Shown here: in pieces, positions 18,217-61,883 of the stretch
Numbering within the stretch: position 1 is the first letter of the stretch
Layout of the letters: every line of letters begins with the position of its first letter
Source: an uncultured Bacteroidales bacterium
Lineage (GTDB): Bacteria; Bacteroidota; Bacteroidia; Bacteroidales; Bacteroidaceae
NCBI GenBank assembly: GCA_902779845.1
Contig: CACZCZ010000004.1
Location: 166,743-230,742 of the forward strand
Length of the DNA: 64,000 nucleotides
Direction: 5' to 3'
Translations under genes and position numbers: made by a program
Notes under the pieces: generated by a model
Database searches by the model: none
The model's input: only the letters and a program-made list of their open reading frames with translations
What the model was told of the DNA's origin: nothing

Positions 18217-18304
18217 GCACCTTGGTGCGTTGGCGTTTGCACCTTGGTGCATCGCGCTTCGATGCTTGGTGCCTTGTTTTTTGATGCTGCAATGATACAC
18301 CATT
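18217..18304. repeat. 22-bp-period tandem array, four units
   Basis: Units begin at 18217, 18239, 18261 and 18283, exactly 22 bases apart. The first two share GCACCTTGGTGC, the third has GATGCTTGGTGCC, and the fourth retains only GATGC. The CTTGG core followed by GGCGT-like bases is shared with the arrays at 44079-44166 and 61796-61883. Confidence 0.75.
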
Positions 18305-18357
18305 CCCATTGCGGTTCTCGAATGTTTTACCAACTTTTTTAAAAAATTTTAATGTGG

Positions 18358-18529
18358 TTGTCATGATTGTCATCATTGTCAATTGTCATTAAGAGATTCA
18401 GAACCCAGAAGAATGGTCACAATTAGTATATAAAAAATATATTATTTTATTATATACTAATTGCGGGGTGTTTTCCCCTTTAGAAACCCTTAATGACAAT
18501 CGTGACAATGACAATGATGACAACGACAA
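18358..18529. repeat. Long imperfect inverted repeat with nested AT-rich palindrome
   Basis: The left arm (18358-18393) is made of TTGTCA words ending in ATTGTCATTAAG. The right arm (18489-18529) starts CTTAATGACAAT and continues with TGACAA words; the arms are reverse complements apart from small indels. Inside is a perfect 13-bp palindrome, AATTAGTATATAA (18421-18433) and its complement (18450-18462), with a 16-base AT-only loop. Confidence 0.75.
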
Positions 18530-18629
18530 TGGCCGAAATGTCTGTCTTTTCCTGAATTTGGTTGACTCCCCGTAAGCTTTAAATGATTTTCCTTAATCAT
18601 CTTAAACTCCTTAAACAGCGGTTGTCGCG

Positions 18630-19925
18630 CTAGCGCTTAGCTGCGTAGTTGAGAAGGAGGAAGCGGGGATGGCAGCGGAAGTAGATGCCGAAGGAGAAGT
18701 TGCTGGCGAAGGTGGAGGGGAGGATACTGCCGTCGGCTTTCGTCAGCTGGCCCGCATAGAGCGGATAGGCATCGACCTTGGCACCCAGGATGTAGTTCTT
18801 CGCAAAGGTGTGGCTCCACTCAACACCGACATGAGGGGTCAGCATACTTTCGAAACGGGCGCCATCGTGTTTCATGGAAACGGTGCTGTAGAACGGTGCA
18901 CCATAGAGAGATACGAAGTCGCGCGCATAGAAGAGTCCTGCAAAGGCACGGAAGTCACGCACGAAATCTGCGGCCACAGAGCAGTAGCCTGCCACGCCGA
19001 AGTCGAAGGGCCAGAGACGTCCGCTTTGCTGCCAACAGGCTAAGGCGCCGACCTCGGCAGTGAGGGCACGGAACACACGACGGCCTGTGTGCCACTGCAG
19101 GCCAAAGCCAATGCCGCCGTTGGTGATGGTCTGCACGCCCAAATTGGTGACATCCTGTTCGCCACCACGATGCTGGATGAGGATGTCGATAGGGATGTAG
19201 AGGGTGAGGGAGGAGGGGGCAGGGTTGAGGGTTAAAGGTTTATGGTTTATGGTTGAGGGATGAGGGATGAGGAAGATGCGTTGGTGAAGGCCAACGGTGA
19301 AGGCTTCCTGATGGGTGTCTTCCTCGAAGATGTAGCTCTGCCAGTTGAGCCACGCATCCATCTGATAGTGTGGCAGGTCGAGCAGGAGCTGGAAGCCCAT
19401 CTCAGGGTCTTGTGTGAGATTGATTTCGGGATTCATCAGGGGCTCCATCACACGATGGTTGGCGCCACCATAGATGTCGCCCAGCACAAAGGAGAGGTTC
19501 TTCAGCTGTGCCTGAGCACGGAAGAAGGGAAGGATGTGGAAGCCACGCTGGTACTGGTTGCCCTTCCACGTGCCGATGTCATGATAGACATAGCAGGGGT
19601 ATTTGTTGGCACCGTTAAACACTAATGCATGGCAACCAGCTTCGAGACGCACGCTCTGCAGGGGCTGCCACACGAGTTTGGGCTGCAACCAAAGTCCAGG
19701 CAGGGAATAGCCCTTGGCTTGCTCGCCATCGAACTCGTTGTCCTTGAAAAAGGAGATGTTGTCGATCTCGAGGGACAAAGTGGTGACGGCGGCTGAATCC
19801 AGACGATGGTCGGAAGCTGCAAGGCGCTTGGCCAAGTCTTGTGCCTGCAGGGGCAGCACGAGAACCAGGAGACTCGATAGAACGAGCGTCTTTCGCATCT
19901 TTATGGTGGCAAGGTGGGTGTTCAT
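18630..19925 (-). CDS. Predicted outer-membrane beta-barrel protein of unknown function
   Basis: A 431-aa protein with a signal peptide (core MRKTLVLSSLLVLVLPLQAQ) and many amphipathic strands rich in aromatic residues (GFHILPFFRAQAQL, DAWLNWQSYIF, FGIYFRCHPRF), typical of outer-membrane barrels. I do not recognise a family. The start overlaps the stop of the upstream hybrid regulator gene in ATGA, implying coupled translation and a functional link to sensing. Residues about 219-240 (STINHKPLTLNPAPSSLTL) come from a reiterated CAACCATAAACCATAAACC tract, so an intergenic-type repeat has been inserted in frame, presumably in a loop. An ATG nine codons later (MRKT) is the alternative start. Confidence 0.7.
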   Translation of the reverse strand: MNTHLATIKMRKTLVLSSLLVLVLPLQAQDLAKRLAASDHRLDSAAVTTLSLEIDNISFFKDNEFDGEQAKGYSLPGLWLQPKLVWQPLQSVRLEAGCHALVFNGANKYPCYVYHDIGTWKGNQYQRGFHILPFFRAQAQLKNLSFVLGDIYGGANHRVMEPLMNPEINLTQDPEMGFQLLLDLPHYQMDAWLNWQSYIFEEDTHQEAFTVGLHQRIFLIPHPSTINHKPLTLNPAPSSLTLYIPIDILIQHRGGEQDVTNLGVQTITNGGIGFGLQWHTGRRVFRALTAEVGALACWQQSGRLWPFDFGVAGYCSVAADFVRDFRAFAGLFYARDFVSLYGAPFYSTVSMKHDGARFESMLTPHVGVEWSHTFAKNYILGAKVDAYPLYAGQLTKADGSILPSTFASNFSFGIYFRCHPRFLLLNYAAKR

Positions 19926-22900
19926 GATTTGTGTTTCTCCACGTACTCCGAAGGTGAGATTCCGAAGTGGTTCTTGAAGGCGACAGAGAAGTGTGCATTG
20001 TCGGCATAGCCCACGCAGTCGGCTATCTGCGAGATGTTGATTTTCCCTTCGCGCAGCAAGCGGGCAGCCTGTTCCATGCGGATGTTGCGCAGGAATTTAC
20101 CCGTGGAGATGCCGGTGATTTCTTTCATCTTACGGTGCAGCTGCGCACGGCTGATGCCCACTTCTGCGGCCATTTCATCGACATTGTAGCCAGGCTCTGA
20201 GATGTGTGCGTTGACTGAGCGCATGATGCGTTCCATGAGGGCGTCGTCGTTGCCCTTGACCTGCACTTTTTCCACGCGTTCTTCCTGCTGCAGGGCACCG
20301 CTAAACTTGCCACGCAGACGACGGACATTGTCGATGAGGTTGTCAATCTGCACGTGGAGTTCCTCCATGTCGAAGGGCTTGGCGATGTAGGCATCGGCAC
20401 CGGAGCGCAGACCCTCGAGTTTGTTTTCCACTTCGGCCTTGGAGGTGAGCATGATGACGGGCAGTTGTGCCAGATGCGCATTCTCCTTGATGTGCTTGAG
20501 CAGCGTGAGACCGTCCATCTCGGGCATCATCATGTCGCTGATGACGAGGTCGAAGGGCACGGCATCCTTGTTGTCGTCCTCTGCATTGGAGGCGATCAGC
20601 ATCTTCAGCGCTTCCTTGCCGTTGGGAGCATGGGTGAACTTGTAGCGGAATCCGAGTTCCGAGATGATGAAACGGGCGATTTCTGCGTCGTCATCGACGA
20701 TGAGGATGCGGAAACTGGTGGAAGGACGTTTGGCATTGTCACCGGCTGAGAGGACTTCACGCACCGGTGCCTCGGTGACGATCTGTTCGGGTGTGAGGTG
20801 CTTGTTGCCCTTGGGCAAGGTGACGATGAAGCAGGCGCCCTGCTTGTCGGTGCGGCGCTGTGCACGGATGGTGCCGCCATGCATCTGGGTGATGGCGCGG
20901 CAGAGGTTGAGTCCGATGCCTGTGCCCTGAATGCCCAGATTGGTGCGGTTGCGTCCTTGGTAGAAACGGTCGAAGAGGCGGTCGGGGTTGTCTTCTTTTA
21001 TGCCCATTCCATCGTCGATGACGGAGATCTCGATGCTCTTTTCCATCTCACGCAGAACGACCTTGACCTCGCCGCTGTCGTGGGTGTATTTGAAGGCGTT
21101 GGAGAGGAGGTTCGAGATGACCTTGTTGAAGTTGATGTGATCAACCCATGCCAGGATGCTCTGCTTCTCATGTTCGAAGGTGAAGGTGATGGCACGCTGG
21201 TCGGCCACGAACTGGTAGAGCTTGCAGACGTCGCCGACGAAATCCACGAGATTCGTTTCCTGGCAATGCACCTGCAGCTGGTTCTTGTCGAGACGTCGCT
21301 GGTCGAGGATCTGGTTGACGAGTTCCAGCAGTCGCTGGGCGTTGCGGTCGATGGCATCGAGGGAGGAGGACAGCGCTTCGCCGGGCAGCCCCTTCATCTT
21401 CTCGACATTCAGATTCTTCAGCTTCTCAGTAGCCCCCATGATGACGGTCAGCGGCGATCGGATGTCGTGGGTGGCATTGATGAGGAAACGCATCTTCTCC
21501 TCGTCGAGATGGAGGATAGCCTGACGGTGATAGACATATCCTATGATGACAAGAAGGCACAGGAACACAAGGGCATAGATGGCCTGAGCCCATCGCGATC
21601 GGTACCAGGGCGGCGTCACCGTGAGGAGGATGGTTTTCACGGATGAATAGGTGGTGCCGGATTTCGCCCTCACCTCGATGTTGTAGCTGCCAGGTTGCAG
21701 ATGGCTCAGCACGATGCTGTTGTCGCCTTCGGGGTGCTGCAGCCAGGGTTCATCGTTGATGCGATGTTCGTAGATGATGTTACGGGGGTTGTTGAAGTCC
21801 AGAAGGGAGAACTCCAGGGTGATGCTGTTGTCGAGATAGGAGACCGTGTAGCTGTCAGCCAGCGAACTGACGGGGTTGCCGGCGATGAAGAGAGCGGTGA
21901 GTTTCACGTCGGGGAGCTCCTTGTGGCTGCCGGTGACCTCGGAGGGGCGGAAGACGGTGAGGCCGTAGGTGTTGGCGAAATAGATGACACCATCCGCCGT
22001 CTCCATGCCGACACCACAGATGTATTCCTTGGCATTGAGGCCGTTGCCGTTGACATGGCCGATGAGCTTCTTGCTCTGGGCATCATACTGCCAGATGCCC
22101 ATGGATGTCGCACACCAGAGGTCGTCGTTGTCATCCTGCGCGATGTAGCTGATGGTCTTGTCGCGAAGCGCATCGTCGTCGGGGTAGGGGACAGCGGCCG
22201 TGGCACCCTGCTGGTAGCAGTAGAGGCCTTGGTCGGTGCCGATGAGGATGTTGCCGTCGCGTGTCTCGCAGAGCGAGAAACAGATGATTCCATCGAGTAG
22301 TTGGTCGAAGCCCAGGGCACGGAAGCTGTCCGTGGCAGGGTCGTAGCATGAGACACCCACGGCCGTGGCCAGCCAGATGTGGCCGCCACTGTCGCACATC
22401 ATCGCCTGAATCCAGTTGTTCCAGAGATTGCCCCTGGGCGACTGCTCGTCGGTGGCATTGAAGAGTCGCTGGGCGTGGGTCGTGGGGTTATAGACACAGA
22501 AGCCGCGTGAGTAGGTGGAGATGTAGAGGTTGCCGGCTTCGTCATCGACGATGGCATTGACCTTCTCGGCCGTCAGATTGATGTGATGCTTGAAGCGCCC
22601 TGTGACAGGATCGTAGTTGTAGAGCTCCTTGTCGGTGGCCAGCCAGTAGCGCCCGTGGCGGTCGTGGAACAGGTACTCGGTGGCGATGGGAGCAGCGGGA
22701 TGGCTGACAATACGGCCGGTGGCATCGAAGGCGAAGACACCGCTGCCCGGCACCGTGCACCACGTGAGCCCGTCGTCGCCCTCGCAGACCGAGGTGATGG
22801 TGGAGCCGATGAAGTAGTGCTGGGCCAAGAAGCTCCAGGCGGCAAACTGAGGCTGCTGGCTGGGCAGGAGTACGAGGCCCTTGGACTGACAGCCGAGCCA

Positions 22901-23818: not shown

Positions 23819-23865
23819 AAACGAATTTATTTCCGTTGAAGGATGTTTTTGTTGTTTTGACGTTG

Positions 23866-23897
23866 CAAAGTTACAGACTTCCATCTTTCTCTCCAAA
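23866..23897 (-). promoter_or_regulatory. Bacteroides-type promoter of the HTCS gene
   Basis: On the minus strand, TTTG at 23897-23894 and TAACTTTG at 23873-23866 are separated by 20 bases. Transcription would begin near 23859, about 40 bases before the HTCS start codon. Confidence 0.8.
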
Positions 23898-24027: not shown

Positions 24028-24074
24028 TGCCGAAAATTTGATAAAAACAACTAAAAAAACTGAATTCTGTCCTT

Positions 24075-40345: not shown

Positions 40346-43300
40346 ATGAAGAGATTCTACTTAACATTGGCTGCTGCATTGATGGGCGCTGGCTCACTCT
40401 TTGCACAGACCACCATCGCCACCTTAGGTTTTGAGGCGGGTGATGAAAAAGGTAAGAGTTCTGAGTATGCGCTAACTCCCGGCGAGAGCAAATTCGGCGA
40501 CTTCGTCAACGTGAAGGACGAAGACTCCTGGGACGAAGAAAGCACCGATGAACCTAAGTCTGGCCAGTTCTGCCTCTTCGCCGAGAACGGCGCTACTGCC
40601 GGCAACTCATGGGACCGTGGCTTCAAGATTGCCAAGCTGCCCATCAAGGAGAACACTCCTTACCGTGTCAGCTTCTGGATCAAGGCTGATGGCACTTACA
40701 CCGATGACGAAGGCGTTAAGAACACCGCACTCACCTCGTGGCTGTCTCAGGGTATTGAGAACTTCGACAAGAGCATCTGCTCCAAGAGCGGTTTCAACTA
40801 TGGCATTCAGATGACCAGCGGCCTCACTGGCGAATGGCAGCGCATCTCCTTCGTGTCCTTCTACACGAATGCCGATGTCCTGAACAACATCATCGCCAAC
40901 CAGAGCTGGGTCGGTAACGCTGTCTTCCCCGAGGACTTCGGTGGCGATGGCACACAGACCTATGCCGAGTACTTCGACCACAAGTTGCCCAACGAGTTCT
41001 TCCTCGTGGTCAACATGTATAGCCCCACTGAGTACTATCTTGACGACATCAAGATTGAGGAGGGCGTCACCTTCAACGCTGCCACTTTCTCCCAAAGCGC
41101 TAACGCCATCAAGCTTGACTTCGGTTATCAGACCAACATCAAGGATCTGGCCAACCAAAGCAATGGCTCCTTCTCGCTCGATCCCGCTTGCGTGAAGGTA
41201 ACTATTAATGGTGAGCCCGCTACTGTTGAGTACCTCGAGGGTAAGTCCGACGGTTTCCTCTATCTCTTCATGGATGATGACGTCACAATGGAAGAAACTG
41301 ACGAAGTGCTCGTCAGCTTCATCCCCGATGACAAGTGTCCTATCGTGTATAACTCCGACCGTCGCCCCAGCGCTGACACCGAGGCTGACATGCCTGTTCT
41401 GGGCTTCGTGAACGAGGTCGCTTACTTCGATGATGACATCGATGCATTGCCCGATGCTTGGTCACCCGCTACGCTCGTCAAGACCGTTCCTGAGAACGAA
41501 AGCTTCGAGATTGATCCTGCTACGTTCAAGAACATCGCTCTCACCTACGACAAGAAGTTGGATCTCTCCTATGCTTCTGCCACACTCTCCAGAAATGGCG
41601 TTGACACAAACCTCACAGATAAGATGGCACTGAGCGAGGATGGCATGACCATCAACATCGCTGTCGAAGGCCTCTCCGAAGGTGAATACACCCTCGTTGT
41701 TGCTGGCGTTGCCAACAGCTATGGCGTAGATTGCCTCACCGACCAGACAATCACCTTCGCTCTTGGTGAAGACCATGACACCTCCACCTCTGAAGTCATC
41801 TACAGCACCAATGAGACATTCTCAAGCACTGCCAACGGCACCTTCCCCGTAGGTTGGGTTTCTAATGATAACGGCACCATCCACCAGTACGGTCTCACCG
41901 ACAAGGGTGAGGTTTGGAACTACAACTGGGGTGGCAATGTCGGCGGTGGTGGCTGCCGTGCCATGACGGGCTACAGCGGCGACCTCAACGGCGCTGCTAT
42001 CTACTGGCGTTCTATGAACGGCGCTAACCAGCTCGGTACACTGACCTATGGCGAACAGGTGAAAGACTACATCCTCCCCGGTGGAGAACTTGATCCCGAT
42101 ATGCCCGAGGGCATCGACCTCAAGCTGGATGCTCGCAAGTACCAGATTACCATCCGCATGTGTGCTTGGAAGAACCTCAATGGTAACACGGACAAGGTGA
42201 ACCCCGACAATGCTCCTAAGTACACCTTCACCCTCGAGGACCTCGAAGGCAATGTCTATGCACGCTTCGACGATGTTATCGCTATGCCTAACGTCAATGG
42301 CGAACAGAACGTTGCCGTCAGCGGTGTGACACGTTCTCAGACTGACTTCACTGTGGACAAGCCCGGTTACTACATGCTGAAGTTCTCCACCACACAGCCC
42401 AACGGCGAATACCTGCTCGGTGGCGTTGACCTCATCACGATGCCTTCTAAGGCTGCCTACTGGAAGCAGCAGCTCGCTGCAGCTGTCGAGAAGGCTTATG
42501 GCATCCTCGACGCAGCTGAGGAAGAGAAATATGATGGCGAAACCAAGACTGCCTTCGCTGCTGCTGTTCTCGAAGCTGAAACAGGTCACTTCACAGCTCC
42601 CTCTGCCATTCAGGAAATGATTGCTACACTTGACCAGCTGGGCGCAAAGATGCAGGCTCGTGTCACGAATATCGATGCCTTTGCAGACGCTCTAGATAAT
42701 GCTATCTTGTCTCTGGCTGAACTTGATGGTAAGTATCTCGATGCTCCTCTTGCCAACGAGGCTTCCCAGTTGATTTCCCGTTATTCAGAAACCGATCCTT
42801 CCGACCTCTCCGACGAAGAACTTGCACAGGTAACTCCGAAGCTCGTGACTGCTGCTGCTCAGATGGCTAATGTGAAGAGCGTTACCGACATCCTCGCATG
42901 GCGTGGCTACAAGGCTGCTCAGGTTGCATCTCTGCTGGGCTCTGAGTCTCCCGCTGTTGATGCTGCTTTCAACCTTGTTGAGGACGACGACGAAGTTGTC
43001 GAGGCTTGCAACGAAGCTGCCAAGTATTCCATCTATAGCGCATTTGCCGAGAACCTCAACTTCATACAGGACAATCCTGAGATGCTGACCACCGTAACCT
43101 ACGATGCAGGCACGAAGATTGTTGTCGATGGCGAATACACCGACATGACGGGTGAGGAAGTAGCCACAACAGGTATCGACTTCACCAGCATCATCAAGAA
43201 TCCTCGCTTCTACACCTTCACCACCGATGGCGCTGCTCCCTTGAAGGACAACACCGTAGTTGGTTGGATGTGCGAGCAGTATGAAGGCGGTAGCGTCCAC

Positions 43301-43945
43301 CTCGCAAACAACGCTTCTGCAACTGCTGAGAATCCCGTCATCACCAGCGCTATCAACTCCTATGCCGGTGGCTCCGAGTACGATTTCTATCAGGTCATCG
43401 AGAACGTCCCTGTTGGTGTCTATGACATCTACTTCGCTACTCGTACGGCTATCAAGAACCAGCCTGATGTAGAAGGTATAACTGGTGTCTTCAACGCACA
43501 GGATGACGAAACAGGTCTCTGGGATAAGTACATCTACGCTCAGGTGGGCGACGAAGAACCCATCACGGTTCCCTTCGCAGCTGGTAGCTCTTGGTACGGC
43601 CACCCGACTGTCATCCATGGTGTGAAGGTTGGCGAAGACCAGACACTCATCATCGGTGTCATCGAGCACTATATCTCCGGTCAGGCTTCCGGTCATGACT
43701 ATGCTCCCACAGACTGGTGGAACACCAACACCTTCGCAGGTGAAGCTCGCATGTATCTCGTAGCTCCTTATCCTGAGTATGACTACGCTACAGCCGCTGT
43801 TGGCATCCAGAATGTCAACACCGTTTCCAAGGCTCCCGTCTCCACCATCTACAGCGTCAGCGGTACTCGTCTGGGCCAGATGCAGAAGGGCGTGAACATC
43901 GTGAAGCGTGCCGACGGTTCTGTCAGCAAGGTTCTCGTGAAGTAA
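40346..43945 (+). CDS. Large secreted multidomain protein with sorting-like C-terminal tail, 1199 aa
   Basis: No named function recognised. Signal peptide 1-21 (SLFAQ). Residues about 22-240 look like a carbohydrate-binding-type jelly roll (FEAGDEKGKS, YRVSFWIKADG, TEYYLDDIKIEEG). Two Ig-like stretches follow (about 245-480), a second jelly roll (about 490-700), a helical spacer (about 705-910, e.g. AKMQARVTNIDAFADALDNA), and another beta domain (about 930-1150). The last 30 residues (IYSVSGTRLGQMQKGVNIVK...VLVK) form the tail typical of Prevotella secreted proteins. It probably binds or tethers polymer at the surface. Codon choice is notably richer in GCT, GTT and GGT than the neighbours, which may mean high expression. 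Confidence 0.75.
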   Translation: MKRFYLTLAAALMGAGSLFAQTTIATLGFEAGDEKGKSSEYALTPGESKFGDFVNVKDEDSWDEESTDEPKSGQFCLFAENGATAGNSWDRGFKIAKLPIKENTPYRVSFWIKADGTYTDDEGVKNTALTSWLSQGIENFDKSICSKSGFNYGIQMTSGLTGEWQRISFVSFYTNADVLNNIIANQSWVGNAVFPEDFGGDGTQTYAEYFDHKLPNEFFLVVNMYSPTEYYLDDIKIEEGVTFNAATFSQSANAIKLDFGYQTNIKDLANQSNGSFSLDPACVKVTINGEPATVEYLEGKSDGFLYLFMDDDVTMEETDEVLVSFIPDDKCPIVYNSDRRPSADTEADMPVLGFVNEVAYFDDDIDALPDAWSPATLVKTVPENESFEIDPATFKNIALTYDKKLDLSYASATLSRNGVDTNLTDKMALSEDGMTINIAVEGLSEGEYTLVVAGVANSYGVDCLTDQTITFALGEDHDTSTSEVIYSTNETFSSTANGTFPVGWVSNDNGTIHQYGLTDKGEVWNYNWGGNVGGGGCRAMTGYSGDLNGAAIYWRSMNGANQLGTLTYGEQVKDYILPGGELDPDMPEGIDLKLDARKYQITIRMCAWKNLNGNTDKVNPDNAPKYTFTLEDLEGNVYARFDDVIAMPNVNGEQNVAVSGVTRSQTDFTVDKPGYYMLKFSTTQPNGEYLLGGVDLITMPSKAAYWKQQLAAAVEKAYGILDAAEEEKYDGETKTAFAAAVLEAETGHFTAPSAIQEMIATLDQLGAKMQARVTNIDAFADALDNAILSLAELDGKYLDAPLANEASQLISRYSETDPSDLSDEELAQVTPKLVTAAAQMANVKSVTDILAWRGYKAAQVASLLGSESPAVDAAFNLVEDDDEVVEACNEAAKYSIYSAFAENLNFIQDNPEMLTTVTYDAGTKIVVDGEYTDMTGEEVATTGIDFTSIIKNPRFYTFTTDGAAPLKDNTVVGWMCEQYEGGSVHLANNASATAENPVITSAINSYAGGSEYDFYQVIENVPVGVYDIYFATRTAIKNQPDVEGITGVFNAQDDETGLWDKYIYAQVGDEEPITVPFAAGSSWYGHPTVIHGVKVGEDQTLIIGVIEHYISGQASGHDYAPTDWWNTNTFAGEARMYLVAPYPEYDYATAAVGIQNVNTVSKAPVSTIYSVSGTRLGQMQKGVNIVKRADGSVSKVLVK

Positions 43946-43965
43946 TCACTTCATCCTATAACATG

Positions 43966-43995
43966 AAAGTGAGGGCATATCGCCCTCACTTTTTT
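43966..43995 (+). terminator. Intrinsic terminator of the FAS1/SusCD operon
   Basis: Perfect 11-bp stem AAAGTGAGGGC / GCCCTCACTTT with a 5-base loop followed by a run of T, 20 bases after the stop codon of the 1199-aa gene. Confidence 0.9.
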
Positions 43996-44043
43996 ATTTG
44001 TATCTATCAAACTGGGAATACAATCAACACCCCTCGTTTTTTC

Positions 44044-44166
44044 TCACTGGTGAGAAAACATTTTATCACTGGTGAGAAAAGCAAGAAGAGCAAGGTCTTC
44101 AGCCCGTAAGACCAAGCTCTTCCGTCAATAAGACCAAATACCTCTGTAAATAAGGTCAAGTCCTTA
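44044..44166. repeat. 22-bp-period tandem array with drifting sequence
   Basis: Two units starting at 44044 and 44066 share TCACTGGTGAGAAAA. Four more units of the same 22-base period follow: 44079-44100, 44101-44122, 44123-44144 and 44145-44166. Read on the minus strand these four carry GAAGACCTTG, GAAGAGCTTGGTCTTACGG, a TTTGGTCTTA version and a GGACTTGACCTTA version. The consensus equals that of the array at 61796. It lies in a stretch without genes between the terminator at 43966 and the esterase gene. Confidence 0.75.
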
Positions 44167-44191
44167 TGGTCTGAAGGACTTGACCTTTTTT
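44152..44191 (+). terminator. 12-bp stem-loop with T-run
   Basis: AAGGTCAAGTCC (44152-44163) pairs perfectly with GGACTTGACCTT (44176-44187), followed by TTTT. It has the form of an intrinsic terminator on the plus strand but lies about 200 bases after the previous gene, and its left arm is the last unit of the 22-bp array. Confidence 0.55.
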
Positions 44192-44245
44192 GAAAGTACA
44201 TTAAAATTGATTACGAAGGACACTACTACTCACTCGCCTTACCCT

Positions 44246-44311
44246 CTATAGAGACTACGCTTAGACACTATAGAGACTAAGCATAGACACCATCAAGACT
44301 TTGCTTCGACG
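44246..44311. repeat. Three further 22-bp tandem units
   Basis: Units at 44246-44267, 44268-44289 and 44290-44311. The first two share CTATAGAGACTA and differ at three positions; the third is degenerate (CCATCAAGACTTTGC). The array abuts the stop codon of the esterase gene. Same period as 44044-44166 but different sequence. Confidence 0.75.
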
Positions 44312-45595
44312 TTAGCGGGTTATGACTTTCTTGCCGCCCACGATGTAGATGCCACGGGGCAGACGTGTGCCGGGGTGCAGGGACATGCGACGGCCTTGAA
44401 GGTCGTAGATGGCACTGGGGTCGGCATCGGCAGGAACGGCGTTGACGAGGACGGGGATGTTGCCAATGGTGATATCCACGTTGTGCTCGGTGCCAAAGAA
44501 GTCGGTGTAGGTGGCGGTGACGATGCCGCCAATGCCGCTGGAAGGAATCTTCACCTTGCCATTGGTGATTTTGAAGTCGGTGCTGGCAAAGGTGGCTTCT
44601 TCCGTGAGATCCTCGCGATGACCGTCGGCAAAGGTACACCACAGCTGCAGGGTGACGGTGGCACGGGCTTTGGCATCGTAGTGGTCATCAAAGCTATCGA
44701 CGGTGTAGAACTTCTGGAGGCTTTTGGCCATCGTGAAGTCGGGGTTCATCAGGGTCGCAGCGCCCATCGTCTGCAGCGCGGCATAGGCATAGCGCTTGCC
44801 CATGGTGCGGTAGCCGGCGGCGCAGAAATGCCAGGGGTCGGTGTTGTTGCCGGGACAGCCGTTGGAGTGGATGACATGTGCTGTTGGAACCACGCTGGGC
44901 ATTCGGGCGACGACGGTGTTGTGGCCGTAGCAGGCGCCGCCCTGGTCCTGCCGCAGTGTCTCGCCAACGAACAGGGGGACATCCTCTGCATTGAGGTCGA
45001 GGTCGGAGAGTATGTCGTTATAGATTTTCTTGACCATATTGGGCCAGTTGGGGTCGCCGTTGTTGCTGCACCCCTGATGCAGCAAGATGCCCTTGATGAC
45101 ACCGCTCTCCTGAGCCTTACGCCCCATGTCGATGAGTCGCTGGTAGGCATTGCCGCCATAGCAGTTCTTGGTGATTGTGGCCCACCATTCGTTGGGGTTG
45201 TCAGCCAGCTTCTGCTCACACTTGTCCTTGTCGAACATCTCAATGGGACTGCCGCCCATGGCCACTGCCACGACGCCCACTTTGACATCCGTGGGCAGGG
45301 CGGCAACCATGGTGCGACCAAAATAGTCACACATCCCCAGCTTGCCAATGGGACTGACGATGGGCGGAAGGGCCTTGTACCATCTGCCCAGAGTGCGCGA
45401 GGGGGTGTCGAAGTGGGTGGTGGCGAGCATCTTGAAGCGGCTGTTGACGGTGTTGTCCACGTTCTCCCACGGGGCATTACCCTCCATGTTGGATTGTCCG
45501 AAACAGAGGTAGATGTAGAAATTGGTGTCAACCTCAGCGGTGGCTGTCACCAGGGCGAGGGTCAACAAGGTAAAAGACAGGACGAACTTTTTCAT
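44312..45595 (-). CDS. Secreted SGNH/SASA-family carbohydrate esterase
   Basis: A 427-aa secreted esterase that probably removes acetyl groups from glycans (sialate O-acetylesterase / CE6-like acetylxylan esterase fold). The signal peptide ends near residue 20. The nucleophile is S35 in CFGQSNMEG; the C-terminal Asp-His pair is in NTDPWHFCAAGYRTMG. An Ig-like domain (about 285-390) follows, then the tail AIYDLQGRRMSLHPG...RGIYIVGGKKVITR, the same sorting-like form as two other proteins here. It lies 41 bases downstream of the GH115 gene, in one operon, which favours an acetylated glucuronoxylan-type substrate. Whether it acts on xylan or sialic acid cannot be told from sequence alone. Confidence 0.85.
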   Translation of the reverse strand: MKKFVLSFTLLTLALVTATAEVDTNFYIYLCFGQSNMEGNAPWENVDNTVNSRFKMLATTHFDTPSRTLGRWYKALPPIVSPIGKLGMCDYFGRTMVAALPTDVKVGVVAVAMGGSPIEMFDKDKCEQKLADNPNEWWATITKNCYGGNAYQRLIDMGRKAQESGVIKGILLHQGCSNNGDPNWPNMVKKIYNDILSDLDLNAEDVPLFVGETLRQDQGGACYGHNTVVARMPSVVPTAHVIHSNGCPGNNTDPWHFCAAGYRTMGKRYAYAALQTMGAATLMNPDFTMAKSLQKFYTVDSFDDHYDAKARATVTLQLWCTFADGHREDLTEEATFASTDFKITNGKVKIPSSGIGGIVTATYTDFFGTEHNVDITIGNIPVLVNAVPADADPSAIYDLQGRRMSLHPGTRLPRGIYIVGGKKVITR

Positions 45596-48312: not shown

Positions 48313-49242
48313 ATGAAGACACTCTGTCAGTACATTTCTAAATATATGGGCGCGCTGGTGCTGCTGGCGGCAGCAGTGGCGGTGTGGCAACCGGAACTCT
48401 TCCTGTGGATGGGTCCCCGGACCATCAACCCCATGCTCGGCGTCATCATGTTCGGCATGGGCCTGACGCTCTCACCCTCCGACTTTAAGATGGTGCTACG
48501 CCGTCCAAAGGACATCCTCATCGGTTGTCTGGCGCAGTTCACGGTGATGCCGTTGTTGGCAATGGGGCTTACGTGGGCGTTCAGGCTGCCAAAGGAGCTG
48601 GCGCTGGGCGTAATTCTCGTGGGCTGCTGCCCGGGTGGCACAGCCTCCAACGTGATCACCTATCTGGCGAAAGGCGATCTGGCACTTTCCGTTGGGATGA
48701 CGGCCACATCGACCCTGCTGGCACCGCTGCTAACACCCTTGCTGGTGTGGCTCATAGCCGGAACCATGGTGAATGTGGATACCGTTGGGATGCTCCTGAG
48801 CATTGTCTATGTCGTGATAGCGCCGATCCTCGTAGGCCTGTTGTGCCAGCGTTTCTTGCCTCGGCTGACGCAGGGCGTTGTACCCTATCTGCCGGCATTC
48901 TCCTCGATCGTCATTGCCTTCGTGGTGGGTATTGTCGTGTCGCACAACGCAGAACGCCTGCTGGTGGGAGGATGGCTTGTTGTTCTGGTGGTGATGCTTC
49001 ACAACGTTTGTGGCTTAGGCCTCGGCTACCTGATTGGACGCGGCTTGGGACTGGCCGATGCGAAACGGAGGGCCATCTCCATAGAGGTGGGGATGCAGAA
49101 CTCAGGACTTGCCAGCAGTCTGGCCACACTGCATTTCGCTGCTTTCCCGATGGCCACCATCCCCGGTGCCATCTTCAGCGTGTGGCATAACATCAGCGGA
49201 GCCTTGGTAGCACGGCTCTACACCTACAAAAAGCCATCCTAA
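48313..49242 (+). CDS. Bile acid:sodium symporter (BASS) family transporter
   Basis: A 309-aa inner-membrane protein with about nine to ten hydrophobic helices. Family features are the early FGMGLTLSPSDFKMVLRRP, the glycine-rich sodium-site region VGCCPGGTASNVITYLAKGD, and IEVGMQNSGLASSLA in the second crossed-helix region. BASS proteins move sodium with organic anions; in Bacteroidota the substrate is usually unknown, and bile acid should not be assumed. It is monocistronic, with its own promoter and a shared terminator. The last two codons and stop lie inside the first unit of a 25-bp tandem repeat. Confidence 0.92.
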   Translation: MKTLCQYISKYMGALVLLAAAVAVWQPELFLWMGPRTINPMLGVIMFGMGLTLSPSDFKMVLRRPKDILIGCLAQFTVMPLLAMGLTWAFRLPKELALGVILVGCCPGGTASNVITYLAKGDLALSVGMTATSTLLAPLLTPLLVWLIAGTMVNVDTVGMLLSIVYVVIAPILVGLLCQRFLPRLTQGVVPYLPAFSSIVIAFVVGIVVSHNAERLLVGGWLVVLVVMLHNVCGLGLGYLIGRGLGLADAKRRAISIEVGMQNSGLASSLATLHFAAFPMATIPGAIFSVWHNISGALVARLYTYKKPS

Positions 49243-49308
49243 GAAAAGGTACAACAAACCATCCTGAGACAAGGTACAACAAACCATCCTGAGACAGGGG
49301 ATAATAAA
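49234..49308. repeat. 25-bp tandem repeat, three units
   Basis: Units at 49234-49258, 49259-49283 and 49284-49308, each beginning CCATCCT(G/A)AGA. The first two continue with AGGTACAACAAA; the third has diverged to GGGATAATAAA. The array starts in the last codons of the symporter gene and runs up to the terminator. Confidence 0.85.
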
Positions 49309-55944: not shown

Positions 55945-56694
55945 TCAATCATCCTGCGGTGCGGGCAGGGCTGCGAGGGCTTCTGCTGCGCTGAGGATAT
56001 TGTTGTTATAGACGTCCTCACGCACCTTACCGTCGCGGAGGACGATATTGCGCGAAGAGTACTGTGCGATTTCCGGGTTGTGGGTCACGAAGATGATGGT
56101 GCGCCCCTCGGCATGCAGCTTTTGGAAGAGCACGAGGACTTCGAAAGAGGTGCGGGTGTCGAGGTTACCGGTGGCCTCGTCGGCAAGGATGACAGCGGGG
56201 TTGTTGACCAGCGCACGTGCGATGGCTACGCGCTGCATCTGTCCGCCGGACATCTGGTTGCTCTTGTGCTCCAGGCGGTCGCCGAGGCCTACGGCCTGCA
56301 GGGCTGCTACGGCAGCTTCGCGACGTTGCCGCGAATTGTACTCCTTGTTATACATCAGCGGCAGCTCTACGTTCTCCACCGCCGTGGTCTTGGCCAGCAG
56401 GTTGTAGTTCTGGAAGACGAAGCCTATCTTGCGGTTGCGCAGACGGGCTCGCTGGCTACGTCGCATAGAACGCACGGGGATGCCGTCGAGGAGGTATTCG
56501 CCGCTCGTGGGAGTGTCCAGGCATCCGAGCTGGTTCAGCAGCGTCGATTTGCCCGAACCCGATGTACCCATGATGGTCACGAACTCGCCCTCGTAGATCT
56601 TGAACGAGACACCGCGCAGCGCGTGAACCGTCTCACTGCCGACCTGGAAGTCGCGACGTACATCCTGAAGTTCGATGACAGCTTTCTTTTCCAT
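55945..56694 (-). CDS. MacB/LolD-type ABC transporter ATP-binding protein
   Basis: A 249-aa ATPase that powers the adjacent permease. Walker A GTSGSGKSTLL, Q-loop VFQNYNLLAKTTAVENVELP, signature MSGGQMQR, Walker B VILADEATGNLD, H-loop FVTHN. It starts on the base after the stop of the adaptor gene and precedes the permease by 31 bases. The C-terminal 20 residues (about 230-249) are extra to the fold. Confidence 0.95.
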   Translation of the reverse strand: MEKKAVIELQDVRRDFQVGSETVHALRGVSFKIYEGEFVTIMGTSGSGKSTLLNQLGCLDTPTSGEYLLDGIPVRSMRRSQRARLRNRKIGFVFQNYNLLAKTTAVENVELPLMYNKEYNSRQRREAAVAALQAVGLGDRLEHKSNQMSGGQMQRVAIARALVNNPAVILADEATGNLDTRTSFEVLVLFQKLHAEGRTIIFVTHNPEIAQYSSRNIVLRDGKVREDVYNNNILSAAEALAALPAPQDD

Positions 56695-57873: not shown

Positions 57874-57946
57874 ATTGTTCTTTGTCTTTTCTTTGTATTT
57901 GTTTCCTATTTATTTTACGCTTGTCTCATCTTCTCTTTTTCTCAGC

Positions 57947-59278
57947 TCAGATCTCAATCAGCCCGCCTTGATAGAACTTCAGCAGCTGGGTGTTGAGGAT
58001 GGTGGTGTATTTGCTTTGGAGCTTGTTCTGCTCGGCTTTCAGCAGGTTGTCGCGAGCCTGCAGCAGATCCACGATGTTCTTGAGACCTTCCTTGAACTGC
58101 TCGTTGATGAGCTCGTAGTTGGTCTCCATGCTCTTCAGGGCGGCGTCGGCACTGATGAAACGCTGCTGCGAGGTGGTAGCCTCCAGCCACAGGTTCTCGA
58201 TGGTGGAGCCCAGCGTTGTGCGCTTGTCCTGCAGGTCGAGGGCAGCGTTGGTCTGGGCAATCTTCGCACGGTTGACGGCCGTCCTGTTGCGACGCTGGTC
58301 AAAGATGGGCACACTCACGCCGAGGCCTACGCTTCCGTTCAGGTTCAGCTTGAGCTGACGTCCGATGTTGTCGTCCGAGGCGCTGTAGTGGCTATCGCCG
58401 ATGCCGGCATTCATGCTGATGGTGGGGTAATAGCCGCGCTTGGCGATGTTCAGCTGCACGTCGGCAGCGTCCTGCTGCAGCTCAGCAGCACGTATCTCAG
58501 GACGTGAGAGCAGTGCCTGCTCGAACACCTCCATCTTAGAAGGAATGGGGGCGAGTGCTCGGCTGTCGTCCATCTCGTCGGCCGACACATCAAAGGGCTG
58601 TGTGATGTCCAGTTGCAACAGTTCCTTCAGCTGGCGCTTATAGCCGGCCACCTGCGACTCGGCGTTCACCACGTCGTACTGGGCAGTGGCATACTGCGAC
58701 TCGAGCTGTGCCACATCGGCCTTGGCCAGATCGCCCACCTTCAGACGTTCCTGTCCGCGCTCCAATTGCTGCTTTGCGGTGGCTGCGAGCTGCTCGTTGA
58801 CACGTTGGGCCTCGATGGTGTAGAGAATCTGCACGTAGAGGTGTGCAATTTTCTCCTGAATGGTCTTCAGGGACTGGTCGGTCTGCACCTCGGAGATCTC
58901 CGTCTGCACCTTTTGTGCCTGGATATTCTTGCGGTTGATGCCTCCGTCCCAGATGGTCCAGTTGGCATTCAGTCCGTAGCTACCGTTCTCGGTGAGCTTG
59001 TTGTTGGTGCTGGTGGCCATTCCGTTCTGCACGATGACAGTGGCTTCCTGGAAGGGTCTGTAGCCCAGGCTCTGACTCATGGAAAAGGAGAGGGTAGGGA
59101 AGAGGGCCGCCTTCCTCTGCTTCAGTTGCTCGAGGGCGTCCTGCTCAGAGAGACGGTTCTTTTGAATCGTGATGTTGTGTTCCGTGGCATAGTCCAGACA
59201 TTGTTGTAGCGACCAAGTCTGCGCCATTGCCGCCACCGGCAGCAAAGCCAGCGTGAGAAGAATTTTTCGTGTATTCAT
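57947..59278 (-). CDS. TolC-family outer-membrane efflux protein
   Basis: A 443-aa trimeric outer-membrane channel subunit. Signal peptide (about 1-19, PVAAMAQ) then two OEP repeats (about 22-215 and 230-430) with long helices: WSLQQCLDYATEHNITIQKN, LYVQILYTIEAQRVNEQL, GVSVPIFDQRRNRTAVNRAK and LINEQFKEGLKNIVDLLQA. First gene of the leftward efflux operon; 73 bases separate it from the adaptor. Confidence 0.95.
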   Translation of the reverse strand: MNTRKILLTLALLPVAAMAQTWSLQQCLDYATEHNITIQKNRLSEQDALEQLKQRKAALFPTLSFSMSQSLGYRPFQEATVIVQNGMATSTNNKLTENGSYGLNANWTIWDGGINRKNIQAQKVQTEISEVQTDQSLKTIQEKIAHLYVQILYTIEAQRVNEQLAATAKQQLERGQERLKVGDLAKADVAQLESQYATAQYDVVNAESQVAGYKRQLKELLQLDITQPFDVSADEMDDSRALAPIPSKMEVFEQALLSRPEIRAAELQQDAADVQLNIAKRGYYPTISMNAGIGDSHYSASDDNIGRQLKLNLNGSVGLGVSVPIFDQRRNRTAVNRAKIAQTNAALDLQDKRTTLGSTIENLWLEATTSQQRFISADAALKSMETNYELINEQFKEGLKNIVDLLQARDNLLKAEQNKLQSKYTTILNTQLLKFYQGGLIEI

Positions 59279-59315
59279 TGATGATTCTAATGTGTTGTCC
59301 TTGTTAAAAACCGCG

Positions 59316-59323
59316 CAAAGTTA
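59316..59323 (-). promoter_or_regulatory. Likely -7 element of the TolC operon
   Basis: TAACTTTG on the minus strand 38 bases before the TolC start codon. No TTTG is found at the proper -33 distance, so the call rests on the -7 box and position. Confidence 0.5.
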
Positions 59324-59420
59324 CTTCAAAATTGAATACATGACATGATTCTCTCGTCGAAGTTTAATCATATTAAGAGGTTTTAACGGTTGAACTGCTT
59401 AAAAAATGTCAAAATAGCCT

Positions 59421-59428
59421 TACCTTTG
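59421..59428 (+). promoter_or_regulatory. Likely -7 element of the DUF5687/ABC operon
   Basis: TACCTTTG 24 bases before the ATG at 59453. The -33 region lacks a clear TTTG. It supports 59453 as the true start of the next gene. Confidence 0.5.
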
Positions 59429-59452
59429 TCGCCAAATTCAGAACAACACATC

Positions 59453-60910
59453 ATGATTACGACTGCAACGAAAGAACTATTCCGTTTGTGGATGGTGCAG
59501 AAACGCCGCGCCTTCACATGGAAAGACGTATTCATCGGCGCCTATTTCTTCGGACTCTTTATCTTTGTACTCCTGGGAGTCAAGCACGCTCTCGACGAGA
59601 CTGGCGGCATCGGCGAAATCCCCTTCCCCCTGATCTCGCTGGTGCCTCTGCTGGCCGTCAGCATCATCCCGGGCGACATGATGATGAAGCTCTTCTGGCG
59701 GCGCTCGCCGGTGGAGATGGACGACTACCTGCGTTCACGCCCCATCACGCCTCGCGAATGGGCGCTGCTGGTGTTGGTGGACACCAAGGTGGGCTTCCTG
59801 CAATGGATGCTGCCGCTGGCCATCAGCTTCACGACCTTGCTGTTTATGCCCTTTGCATTTGCGCTGCTGACCTTTGTTACGGCCTACACCTGCACCCTTG
59901 TCAACGCCCTCCTGCAGAACTGCTGGCGTCGTGCACCGGGTAACCAATACACGCTGCCGCTGGCCTTCGGCTACCTCTTCTGGCTCTTCCTCGTCTATGT
60001 GCTTGCCGGCGTGGCTTTTGTGGTCATCGGCTTGGCTGCTGACGATCCCTCGGAGCCCCTGCTGCCGATGGCTACGGAGTGGAGCACACTCGTGGCCTCG
60101 CTGCTGCTCATCCTGCTGAACAGCCTCGTCTGCTTTATCCTGCATCGCTACTTTGCCCGCATGAAGAACCATAACGAGGAGACCCATGCCCCCGTCACCA
60201 CCACTGTCCGCTCGCTGGGCCAGGTGTCGCTGTGGAGCATCGAGTGGGTGCAGCTGTTGCGCAGCAAGCGTCTGCGTGTCAGCTTCTTCTTCATCGTGGT
60301 CATCTTCCTGCTGAACACCTATATGCAGCAGCAGGACACCATCCAGCAGGACATGAACGGTGTCAACATCATGCTCATGTTCGGCATCGCCTTCCCCAGC
60401 ATCATCCTGGCACAATGGGTGATGGGCTGCGAAGCCAACTTCTGCTCCGGCCTCTGGACGAAGCCTTGGCCCGTGGAGGGCATCCTGCGCCGCAAGTACG
60501 TGTTCTTCTGTGCCATTTGCTGCGCGATGGCGCTGCTCATTCTTCCCTGCGTCTTGTGGCTTGGGATGTCGTTCTGGACGCTCCTGTGCACCTTGCTGTT
60601 CAGCTGTGGCATCTTCGTGTTGCCGTTTATGGCCACCTGCCTCTACAGCAGCCGTATGGATCTCTTTGCCTCTGCCTTCTTCAACTACCAGGGCGCCAAC
60701 AAGCAGCTCAACTTCTTCTCCTTTGTCATGTTCATCCCCATGGGCATCTACTATGCGTCCTACTTCCTGTTGCCGCATCTCTATGCCCATCTTCTCGTCG
60801 GCGGCCTCGGCATCCTCGGCATCCTGCTGCATCGCCCCTACATCCATTGGATTGCCACCATCTGGCACCGCCGACGCTATCAGATCATGGAGAGATGGTT
60901 AGCTGAATAA
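59453..60910 (+). CDS. DUF5687 family multi-spanning membrane protein (ABC exporter subunit)
   Basis: A 485-aa integral membrane protein with about ten to twelve hydrophobic helices and few other features (FGLFIFVLLGVKHALDE, SIIPGDMMMKLFWRRSPVEM, RSRPITPREWALLVL). It matches the Bacteroidota DUF5687 family, whose members lie beside a single ABC ATPase gene, as here (61012). The pair probably forms an export system of unknown cargo. Start at 59453 because the -7 box at 59421 lies just upstream; the TTG at 59390 would precede it. Confidence 0.82.
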   Translation: MITTATKELFRLWMVQKRRAFTWKDVFIGAYFFGLFIFVLLGVKHALDETGGIGEIPFPLISLVPLLAVSIIPGDMMMKLFWRRSPVEMDDYLRSRPITPREWALLVLVDTKVGFLQWMLPLAISFTTLLFMPFAFALLTFVTAYTCTLVNALLQNCWRRAPGNQYTLPLAFGYLFWLFLVYVLAGVAFVVIGLAADDPSEPLLPMATEWSTLVASLLLILLNSLVCFILHRYFARMKNHNEETHAPVTTTVRSLGQVSLWSIEWVQLLRSKRLRVSFFFIVVIFLLNTYMQQQDTIQQDMNGVNIMLMFGIAFPSIILAQWVMGCEANFCSGLWTKPWPVEGILRRKYVFFCAICCAMALLILPCVLWLGMSFWTLLCTLLFSCGIFVLPFMATCLYSSRMDLFASAFFNYQGANKQLNFFSFVMFIPMGIYYASYFLLPHLYAHLLVGGLGILGILLHRPYIHWIATIWHRRRYQIMERWLAE

Positions 60911-61011
60911 AAAAGCCTCGCCCCCCAACCCCTCTCCGAAGGGCGAGGGGGTTACCCTTGAACTCCTTAAACTCCTTGAACCCCTTGAACCCTGAAACTT
61001 GAAACAACATA
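60911..61011. repeat. C/G-rich hairpin plus reiterated words
   Basis: CCTCGCCC (60916-60923) pairs with GGGCGAGG (60941-60948) around CCCCTCTCC. On the minus strand the segment has several G-runs. It is followed by a GAACTCCTTAAACTCCTTGA word tract directly before the ABC ATPase start. Confidence 0.55.
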
Positions 61012-61740
61012 ATGGAACTCCGAATCGAAAATCTCAAGAAATGTTATGGTGAGAAAGTGGCATTGGACTTGCCCGAACTCACGATTAAGAGTGGCGAACT
61101 CGTAGGCCTCGTCGGCAACAACGGTGCCGGCAAGACCACGTTGCTGCGCCTCATCCTGGACTTGATCAAGGCCGACAGCGGTCAGGTCTTCTCCAACGAC
61201 ATCGACGTAGCAGCACCCGCACCCCAGAAAGGCGGCAGCGAGGCATGGAAGTACTACACCGGCTCGTTCATCGACGGCCGCTTCCTCATTGACTTCTACA
61301 CGCCCGAGGAGTACTTCACCTTCATCGCACACCTCTATGGCATTTCCGACGAGCTCCTGCGCGAGCGGCTGGAAACGTTTCGTCCGCTCATGCACGACGA
61401 GATCCTGGGCACGAAGAAGTACCTGCATGACTTCTCCGAGGGCAACCGTCAGAAGATAGGCATCATCGGTGCCATGCTCATTCATCCCAAGGTGTTGCTG
61501 TTGGACGAGCCCTTCAACTACCTCGACCCCTCGTCGCAGATTGTCGTGGCCCGCATGATAGCCGAGATGAACAGCACGCTGGGCACCACCGTCCTCATCT
61601 CCAGCCACAACCTCTCCTTCGTCTCGGACATCTCCACGCGCATCCTCCTCTTGGAGAAGGGCAAGCTCATCAGCGATTTGCCTAATAAAGAGGGGAGTGC
61701 GATTGCTGCTCTCAACGACTACTTCAATGCCGAGGCGTAA
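61012..61740 (+). CDS. ABC transporter ATP-binding protein
   Basis: A 242-aa ATPase, partner of the upstream DUF5687 protein. Walker A GLVGNNGAGKTTLL, Walker B VLLLDEPFNYLDP, H-loop LISSHNLSF. The signature is unusual: FSEGNRQK replaces the canonical LSGGQ, retaining only part of the motif, which is a known pattern in this subgroup. Predicted to energise export or membrane assembly of an unknown substrate. Confidence 0.92.
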   Translation: MELRIENLKKCYGEKVALDLPELTIKSGELVGLVGNNGAGKTTLLRLILDLIKADSGQVFSNDIDVAAPAPQKGGSEAWKYYTGSFIDGRFLIDFYTPEEYFTFIAHLYGISDELLRERLETFRPLMHDEILGTKKYLHDFSEGNRQKIGIIGAMLIHPKVLLLDEPFNYLDPSSQIVVARMIAEMNSTLGTTVLISSHNLSFVSDISTRILLLEKGKLISDLPNKEGSAIAALNDYFNAEA

Positions 61741-61795
61741 GTCATCTCCCGCCTGAATGTCTCTGTCTGAAGGCCGATTTGATGATATACGGGCG

Positions 61796-61883
61796 GAAGG
61801 CCTTGGCCTTACGGCGTGAAGACCTTGGCCTTACGGCGTGAAGACCTTGACCTTATAAAATGAAGGGTTTTCCCCCATTTTAA
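61796..61883. repeat. 22-bp-period tandem array, three to four units
   Basis: Units at 61796-61817, 61818-61839 and 61840-61861, with a decayed fourth at 61862-61883. Units 1 and 2 differ by one base and contain CCTTGGCCTTACGGCGT; unit 3 has ACCTTGACCTTA. Same consensus as the minus-strand reading of 44079-44166. The rest of the 61741-62000 gap holds no gene. Confidence 0.85.

Follow-up and report, generated by a model that had tools for sequence, protein, structure and literature searches.

Intergenic Chains of 22-bp Dyad Units with Differing Sequences in an Uncultured Bacteroidales Genome

Introduction

An array whose units drift in sequence while their period stays fixed raises the question of what is being kept in it, and for what reader. 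Such arrays lie between genes in a 64,000-nt stretch of DNA from an uncultured Bacteroidales bacterium (GenBank assembly GCA_902779845.1, contig CACZCZ010000004.1, here C4:166743-230742), which is called the window below. An earlier note on this stretch had described three arrays with a 22-bp period as one family with a CTTGG core. Here, the window was analysed together with the source genome (G000; 2.92 Mb, 47 contigs, about 86% complete) and its relatives; the data are incomplete drafts, and the comparison is made at species level.

The arrays at 44 and 61.8 kb of the window belong to a genome-wide intergenic family. In this family, pairs of 11-bp half-units stand head to head, so that every 22-bp unit is symmetric about a dyad axis, and the units form chains of 3–16 in the G000 sample. 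The pitch is fixed across units of unlike sequence (called words here), the units are dyads, the chains are restricted to intergenic DNA, the words vary from species to species, and the number of units differs at a syntenic site of a sister species. We tentatively suggest, at somewhat less than an even chance, that the arrays are a docking lattice on duplex DNA for putative dyad-binding proteins at intergenic boundaries.

Results and Discussion

Fixed Pitch in Intergenic DNA

The G000 sample consisted of 20 and later another 20 stretches of 20 kb each, 864 kb with the window; its first part, window included, was 464 kb. The window and stretches on C2, C3 and C11 that had been picked for earlier matches are included in it, while 700,000 bp are free of hit-based picking; 17 arrays for which the genes on either side were called lie in this part. 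Genes were called in this analysis as hexamer-scored open reading frames (ORFs). The chain detector scores pairing at a fixed spacing only and is blind to the similarity between units (threshold 11, spacing controls confined to 16–30 bp). Two array-rich congeners, G012 and G024 (86% and 72% complete drafts), were analysed in the same way.

In the 864-kb sample, the detector placed 165 units in 23 chains with a spacing of 22 bp, against 0–2 chains at each of 14 other spacings between 16 and 30. The preference for 22 bp, which the earlier note had left to be checked, was seen in this sample. Both flanks were called for 21 of these chains, which feed the later counts. Two of these 21, of a different type (on C11 and C2, resembling the element at 18217 described below), were dropped from the counts of words, boundary bases, array ends, unlike dyads and 3′ ends, mismatches and foot tetranucleotides. 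They were kept in the counts of spacing, gene orientation, folding and stem position, and in the Fisher test of orientation classes.

The same pitch appears when no register is imposed. Pairs of unlike strong dyads in G000 intergenic DNA numbered 24, 10, 17, 14, 9, 13, 3, 15 and 5 at the successive multiples of 11 from 11 to 99 bp, and only 0–2 at any other spacing from 8 to 100 bp. In the whole G000 assembly, all 19 pairs of TCACnnGTGA lying 10–40 bp apart had a spacing of 22 bp; with the pattern reversed, no pair was obtained. The dyad autocorrelation of intergenic DNA in the 464-kb sample reached 4.6, 6.9, 2.4, 4.5, 2.1, 5.3 and 3.0 standard deviations (sd) at lags 11, 22, 33, 44, 55, 66 and 88, and only 1.1 sd at lag 77; in coding DNA of this sample, it was −1.1 sd at lag 22. 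Chains at 22 bp were found inside none of 560 coding regions of G000 (interiors, 685,071 bp), none of 62 in G024 and 1 of 73 in G012, which agrees with the claim that the arrays are intergenic only.

Plain autocorrelation of the 464-kb sample (cut-off of at least 40/66) found 17 regions at lag 14, 11 at lag 21 and 16 at lag 22. Without dyads, it is therefore unspecific for 22, because lags 14 and 21 score too; the dyad-chain tests, unlike plain autocorrelation, single out 22 bp. A first count of dyad pairs over whole sequences, coding DNA included, gave a modest peak of 46 pairs at 22, with 34 at the next highest spacing. These results suggest that sequence is kept to a lesser degree than symmetry and spacing. 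The earlier note had proposed that spacing is kept rather than exact sequence, and the unlike dyads on the 11-bp lattice, the TCACnnGTGA pairs and the same pitch in congeners (see below) agree with this; dyad symmetry is the other kept feature, which it had missed.

Structure of the Unit and Its Words

The unit is a 22-bp imperfect palindrome with a stem of about 6–9 bp and a free centre. When the window arrays are written in rows of 22 bases, each unit shows this form around a free centre pair, e.g., AAGACC-TT-GGTCTT or TTTTCTCAC-TG-GTGAGAAAA. Apart from the chains of the 18217 type, G000 chains hold 3–16 units, with words mixed in one register; for example, six words were counted by eye among the 12 units of C1:81459-81923. 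CTTGG is the centre of certain words (AAGACCTTGGTCTT, GCACCTTGGTGC) and is absent from other words in the same register, and a family defined by a CTTGG core was rejected for this reason. Since the unit is a palindrome, the minus-strand label given to the 44-kb array also has little meaning.

Unit boundaries, read on both strands, carry C at +1 with frequencies of 0.55, 0.53 and 0.57 in G000, G012 and G024 despite the different words of these genomes, and little C at +4 (0.02, 0.01 and 0.10, respectively). Covariation of the stem was assessed for words C/D with 40 distinct units having a TT/AA outer pair, out of 81 with CACnnGTG. Position 4 was paired in 39 of the 40 (24.4 ± 2.5 after shuffling) and position 5 in 33 (19.8 ± 2.6), although two main word classes make up this set and the number of independent covariation events is accordingly small. 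The G012 unit is an oriented imperfect hairpin, not a clean palindrome.

A motif like GGGTTCGTAGGGTTTTCCGCAAAA occurs near arrays at C1:24753 and C1:81540-81584 of G000 and in locus L310 of the relative G041, and also after one RAYT-like gene (an ORF of L233). It may be an array leader; a leader-like motif stands directly ahead of arrays twice in the 864-kb G000 sample and is found in L310 as well. Non-palindromic 11-bp direct repeats like AAACCTACATC lie near G000 dyad arrays, and G041 has a stretch similar to them (loci L055 18704-18846, L062 19683-19772 and L297); these repeats show the 11-bp pitch in another form.

Distribution among Relatives

The first stretches, up to 20 kb each, of 20 congeners were surveyed. 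Pooled, they gave a dyad autocorrelation of 9.7 sd at lag 11 and 6.7 sd at lag 22. The chain detector found seven chains at 22 bp in five genomes, one at 21 bp and none at 13 other spacings; no chain was found within these first stretches in 15 of the 20, and additional congeners look positive at a looser threshold. The congener words, such as AAGACGCGCGTCTT, GGGGAGTTACCTAACTCCCC, AATGGTTAACCATT and TACGACCGGTCATA, are unlike those of G000, while G012 and G024 have words in common with each other. With 120 kb per congener, 12 chains were found in G012 and 8 in G024, and none in G011 and G021. Of the successive GGTTAACC words up to 70 bp apart, all 23 pairs in G012 were spaced at 22, 44 or 66 bp, and so were 9 of 10 pairs in G024, where the remaining one was at 65 bp.

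Outside the genus, 258 kb from other families of the order gave two chains at 22 bp and 0–2 at other spacings, with no excess, and 199 kb of mainly Prevotella loci (L095-L128 without L125) gave none. Among five other genera of the family (143 kb in total, one genus with 3.3 kb), four were without a chain and a single doubtful chain was found in G071. No chain was present in 40 kb of the congener G104. On the basis of these small samples, the trait thus occurs in a part of a single genus. As for a phage origin, two word patterns in exact spaced form had no matches in viral contigs.

The ABC transporter ATPase gene beside the 61.8-kb array has 93% identity to its counterpart in a metagenome-assembled genome (MAG) of red-deer "Bacteroidaceae" (G041), followed by matches mainly to rumen-type Bacteroidaceae and Prevotellaceae MAGs, so the source bacterium probably belongs to this group. 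In the closest-relative loci around this gene (25 loci, 164 kb), the signal is weak, with 3.1 sd at lag 11, 2.0 sd at lag 22 and one region. In a BLAST search with the 61.8-kb array as query, no match rose above chance level (E 0.01–0.09, in 5 of 40 relatives), although the architecture itself, built from other words, is present in some of these relatives.

G041 is a sister species, whose longer syntenic matches to the window are 72–86% identical, and it has words in common with G000. In locus L319 of G041, a gene is followed by a five-unit array; at the syntenic place in C13 of G000, a six-unit array has the same word order, and the same downstream DNA follows both. The C13 site is an imperfect ortholog: G000 has two neighbouring copies of the gene, and the array follows the copy with 82% identity to that of G041, while no chain follows the copy with 93%. 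Between the two species, letters change while symmetry stays, e.g., TTTTCTCAC/GTGAGAAAA beside TTTTATCAC/GTGATAAAA. The 61.8-kb array itself sits at a break of synteny with G041, and no chain was found upstream of the matches to the esterase gene of the 44-kb site in four relatives. These site comparisons are single cases. At genus distance, reciprocal best hits (0–16 per sample pair) gave a few array sites that were one-sided, with no array on the other side.

Such a difference in unit number would also be expected if the arrays had no function. Slippage and unequal exchange would then generate them 22 bp at a time, template switching would correct the imperfect palindromes, and words would be shuffled among arrays at the unit boundaries that they share. 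The boundary C at +1 common to the three genomes fits this as well. Mutation alone, however, leaves unexplained the 3′-end position of the G012 and G024 arrays and the anti-complementary stem positions, both described below, as well as the same pitch in species with different words, and we regard this explanation as improbable.

Position Relative to Genes and RNA Signals

Among intergenic regions of G000, G012 and G024 with both flanks called, a chain was present in 13 of the 67 that lie between convergent genes, compared with 20 of 282 between co-directional genes and 5 of 78 between divergent genes. The excess in convergent regions was significant in the pooled data (Fisher test, p 0.0036) and in G000 alone (7/54 versus 13/292, p 0.023). 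Some long "intergenic" stretches of G000 probably hide genes, so regions above 1500 bp were left out of the second 3′-end test. In regions of up to 1500 bp, 15 of 16 arrays of G012 and G024 lay within 200 bp of a gene 3′ end, compared with a random expectation of 0.44, and none of 5,000 draws matched this.

This position is what would be expected of transcribed 3′-end elements, in which tandem hairpins act as bidirectional terminators or stabilise mRNA. Several further observations are consistent with such a role. In G012, 8 of 12 arrays start with AAA and 6 of 12 end with TTT, compared with 5/40 and 2/40 at internal boundaries; the figures for G024 are 4/6 and 2/6. On either strand, folding is better for the arrays than for their shuffled versions (mean z from −4.3 to −6.6 for 21, 12 and 6 arrays, with 30 shuffles each), and the last two units of the 44-kb chain form a terminator-like hairpin. 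On the other side, the A and T ends are nearly missing in G000 (1/19 each), and the gene that ends at 43945 already has a terminator-like hairpin of its own ahead of the array. Folding alone, moreover, needs no fixed 22-bp pitch between unlike hairpins. On the gene strand of co-directional arrays, G.T mismatches numbered 17 against 21 A.C mismatches in G000, 12 against 13 in G012 and 0 against 3 in G024, and the orientation of G012 units followed no evident rule relative to gene direction (by inspection, with no statistic). Because G.T is not commoner than A.C and no orientation rule is evident, a reading at the RNA level is disfavoured, and we consider it unlikely that the arrays are transcribed 3′-end elements.

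Comparison with Known Systems

The nearest known kind is that of repetitive extragenic palindromic (REP) sequences and bacterial interspersed mosaic elements (BIMEs). In the accessible parts of three sources, these are described as short imperfect extragenic palindromes with many copies per genome, species-specific, of several families and often clustered, with complementary changes in the stems, a GTAG or CGTC foot and variable spacers of mostly 20–100 bp (PMC2817692, PMC3733652, PMC6006769). The arrays resemble them in being short imperfect intergenic palindromes in many copies; species specificity, several families per genome, clustering and complementary stem changes are likewise shared. 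They differ in spacing, since the 22-bp pitch is held even between unlike words. They also differ in the foot: in units extended by four bases on each side, GTAG occurred in 5 of 146 units of G000, 0 of 52 of G012 and 0 of 26 of G024 (27.1, 9.7 and 4.7 after shuffling), and CGTC in 12, 2 and 1 (25.2, 6.8 and 3.5). Both were thus rarer than in shuffled units and had no common fixed position.

A third difference concerns the cognate enzyme. About eight RAYT-like loci were found in G000, most with an HUH motif such as PDHVH or PDHLH and one broken, and RAYT-like genes occur in 14 of 24 congeners. For this reason, it is attractive to regard the arrays as REP-like mobile hairpins, copied as single strands by an HUH tyrosine transposase of the RAYT/TnpAREP type, with the unit length set by cleavage at a fixed distance. 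The oriented imperfect hairpins with fixed mismatches in G012, their intergenic and species-specific character, the several families per genome and a mixed array of about 12 units directly after one RAYT-like gene on C2 are in line with this. Nevertheless, an array lies right beside the gene in only 1 of the 8 RAYT-like loci of G000 and 1 of 12 in relatives (2 of 20), and no match to a RAYT-like profile or PF01797 was found in the array-rich G012 and G024, both of which are incomplete genomes. A paralog on C16 is flanked by hairpin repeats of its own that are different from the arrays. RAYT as the engine of the arrays was examined by Pfam family, protein, profile and flanks and was rejected, as gene presence does not track array presence; mobile hairpins of this type are hence kept only as a rival, and one that we find quite unlikely. 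Since they differ from REPs in foot, spacing and cognate enzyme, the arrays were not filed as REPs.

The RAYT-like HUH proteins of loci L233-L252 occur as several divergent copies per genome, and in many of them in-frame repeats of low complexity separate the HUH part from a C-terminal part that is conserved. The C16 gene (L234) is flanked on both sides by its different hairpin repeats (TGCGGATnGAATCCGCA-like), a layout nearer to REP–RAYT than that of the 22-bp arrays. Subclasses of HUH proteins that have a large C-terminal domain but no REPs have been described (PMC6006769, in part), and the proteins found here resemble them, by description only.

BrickBuilt of Porphyromonas gingivalis, a minisatellite and miniature inverted-repeat transposable element, is likewise composed of imperfect tandem repeats and is dispersed and exclusively intergenic. 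According to the accessible part of PMC4596501, it is one family of 23-nt direct repeats, many copies of which carry a leader, a tail and terminal inverted repeats, and 22-nt repeats are mentioned for strain W83. It resembles the arrays in repeat length, intergenic and dispersed location and Bacteroidales host, when set side by side by description and not by repeat sequence. Chains at its 23-bp pitch numbered one in G000 and none in G012 and G024. Palindromic intergenic candidate structured RNAs are known from human microbiomes, some of them mostly or entirely from Bacteroidetes and most predicted to be terminators (PMC8040213, in part). They differ from the arrays in being conserved RNA motifs, and the accessible part of that source, compared by description only, mentions neither a tandem array nor a fixed pitch.

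Intrinsic terminators share with the arrays the stem-loops at gene 3′ ends and, at 6 of 12 G012 arrays, a T-run; the arrays differ from them in that as many as 16 units follow one another in a fixed register and that only 1 of 19 G000 array ends has a T-run. CRISPR arrays are also intergenic with a fixed pitch and have partly palindromic units, but here there is no conserved repeat with unique spacers, and the unit sequence varies along the array. The array listings contained no CRISPR-like unique spacers, as the earlier note had stated. Searches of the open PMC library turned up no description of such fixed-pitch dyad arrays.

A Possible Docking Lattice

If the arrays are a docking lattice, they would act on duplex DNA, where dimers of dyad-binding proteins could dock next to one another at intervals of two helical turns. 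The lattice would mark gene 3′ ends and intergenic boundaries; as a parallel, BIME arrays of Escherichia coli bind gyrase and the integration host factor IHF, and REPs bind Pol I (PMC2817692, in part). Arrays would gain or lose length 22 bp at a time and would trade entire units, which is proposed to place several words in one register, and the words would drift together with their reader proteins. The lattice is favoured by the unlike dyads at multiples of 11 bp, the TCACnnGTGA pairs, the chain counts by spacing, the mismatch and orientation data that speak against an RNA-level reading, the covarying stems of words C/D, the excess of chains in convergent regions and the array at the syntenic site of G041.

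Several observations weigh against this lattice. The centre pair of words C/D is anti-complementary (3/40 versus 13.0 ± 2.9 after shuffling), and so are stem positions 4 and 7 of G012 (10/47 versus 18.7 ± 3.0 and 5/47 versus 15.7 ± 3.1); this would not be expected of a plain symmetric operator. At least eight words, counted by eye, occur in one genome, so that several proteins or a reader of structure would be needed; no reader protein was identified. The 3′-end bias is weak in G000, where 9 of 14 arrays in regions of up to 1500 bp lay within 200 bp of a 3′ end (0.40 expected, p 0.06) and, without the length limit, 0.26 against 0.19 lay within 150 bp (p 0.29). Finally, the AA/TT period peaks are broad, at 10.5 in G000, 11.1 in G012, 11.0 in G024, 10.6 in G011 and 11.6 in G021. 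The genome AA/TT period was rejected as a yardstick of helical pitch, the peaks being too broad to equate 11 bp with it.

Arrays of the Window

The features of the window are listed in Table 1. Tandem Repeats Finder called period 22 at 61792-61855, 44082-44137, 44039-44080 and 44246-44290, and in a scan of lags 10–59, lag 22 gave three regions and lags 14 and 25 a single region each, with none at other lags at the threshold used. The arrays at 44 and 61.8 kb show the strong drift from unit to unit at a fixed period that had been described. The array placed at 44079-44166 is real and longer: the intergenic region 43946-44311 holds a seven-unit chain and a second 22-bp array. The first two units of the chain form a separate word, TTTTCTCAC/TTTTATCAC paired with GTGAGAAAA, and its fifth unit is decayed (2/6 pairs). 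Three of the four units reported from 61796 are good, and the fourth is decayed. No Rfam model matched the window at the gathering score. Elsewhere, a 25-bp tandem repeat of 2.9 copies (49225-49296) lies at the end of a bile-acid-symporter-family gene.

Table 1. Coordinates of arrays, hairpins and flanking genes in the window.
Feature	Position	Strand	Remarks
Two strong dyads GCACC-TT-GGTGC, 22 bp apart	18212..18255	strandless	Score 10.6, below chain threshold 11
Two decayed units of 18217 array	18256..18299	strandless	2/6 and 3/6 pairs
Dispersed element of ~125 bp enclosing 18217 array	18217..18340	strandless	11 genome matches, itself included
1199-aa flanking gene	40346..43945	+	No Pfam match at E 0.001; 3′ end towards 44-kb arrays
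Terminator-like hairpin with T-run, apart from array	43969..43995	+	Just 3′ of gene 40346-43945; read from sequence
Seven-unit 22-bp dyad chain	44038..44191	strandless	Two TTTTCTCAC/TTTTATCAC-type units, then AAGACC/AAGGAC-type; chain score 25.2
Units 6 and 7 of this chain, mutual reverse complements	44152..44191	+	14-bp stem, 8-nt loop, T-run; folded; terminator-like hairpin inside array
Second 22-bp array of 44-kb intergenic region	44246..44300	strandless	Word CTCTATAGAG
SASA carbohydrate esterase family gene	44312..45595	-	3′ end towards 44-kb arrays
ABC transporter ATPase gene	61012..61740	+	3′ end towards 61.8-kb array
Three-unit dyad chain	61793..61858	strandless	Word AAGACC/AAGGCC-TT-GGCCTT; score 12.6
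Decayed fourth unit of 61.8-kb array	61859..61880	strandless	3/6 pairs

A Separate Dispersed Element at 18217

The third array, at 18217, has only two good dyads, and Tandem Repeats Finder did not call it at score 30. It is part of a separate dispersed element, distinct from the arrays at 44 and 61 kb, with which it had been wrongly joined through CTTGG. Six other copies of this element match over about 110–130 bp at 70–91% identity. The copy in locus L007 ends in CAAAGGTA, which we take to be the reverse complement of the Bacteroidales-type TAnnTTTG promoter box. Adjoining the element in the window, at 18355-18530, is a TGACAAT-rich inverted repeat around an AT-rich hairpin. In G041 (L309 1501-2385), a symporter gene fills the intergenic region where C3 of G000 has an element of this type.

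Significance

A wider proposal, which we hold to be somewhat unlikely, is that the arrays represent a class of elements that inherits symmetry and pitch, not sequence. The 11-bp dyad lattice would then be read by one or more putative proteins sensing pitch or structure, as a chromatin-like boundary at gene ends, with the words turning over between species and within arrays. Usual repeat and homology searches target repeated letters, and because the recurring feature here is a symmetry at constant intervals, elements of this kind can be overlooked elsewhere. A pitch-reading protein, should there be one, would offer direct access to the organisation of bacterial intergenic DNA and to the old REP question of why extragenic palindromes are found at the 3′ ends of genes.

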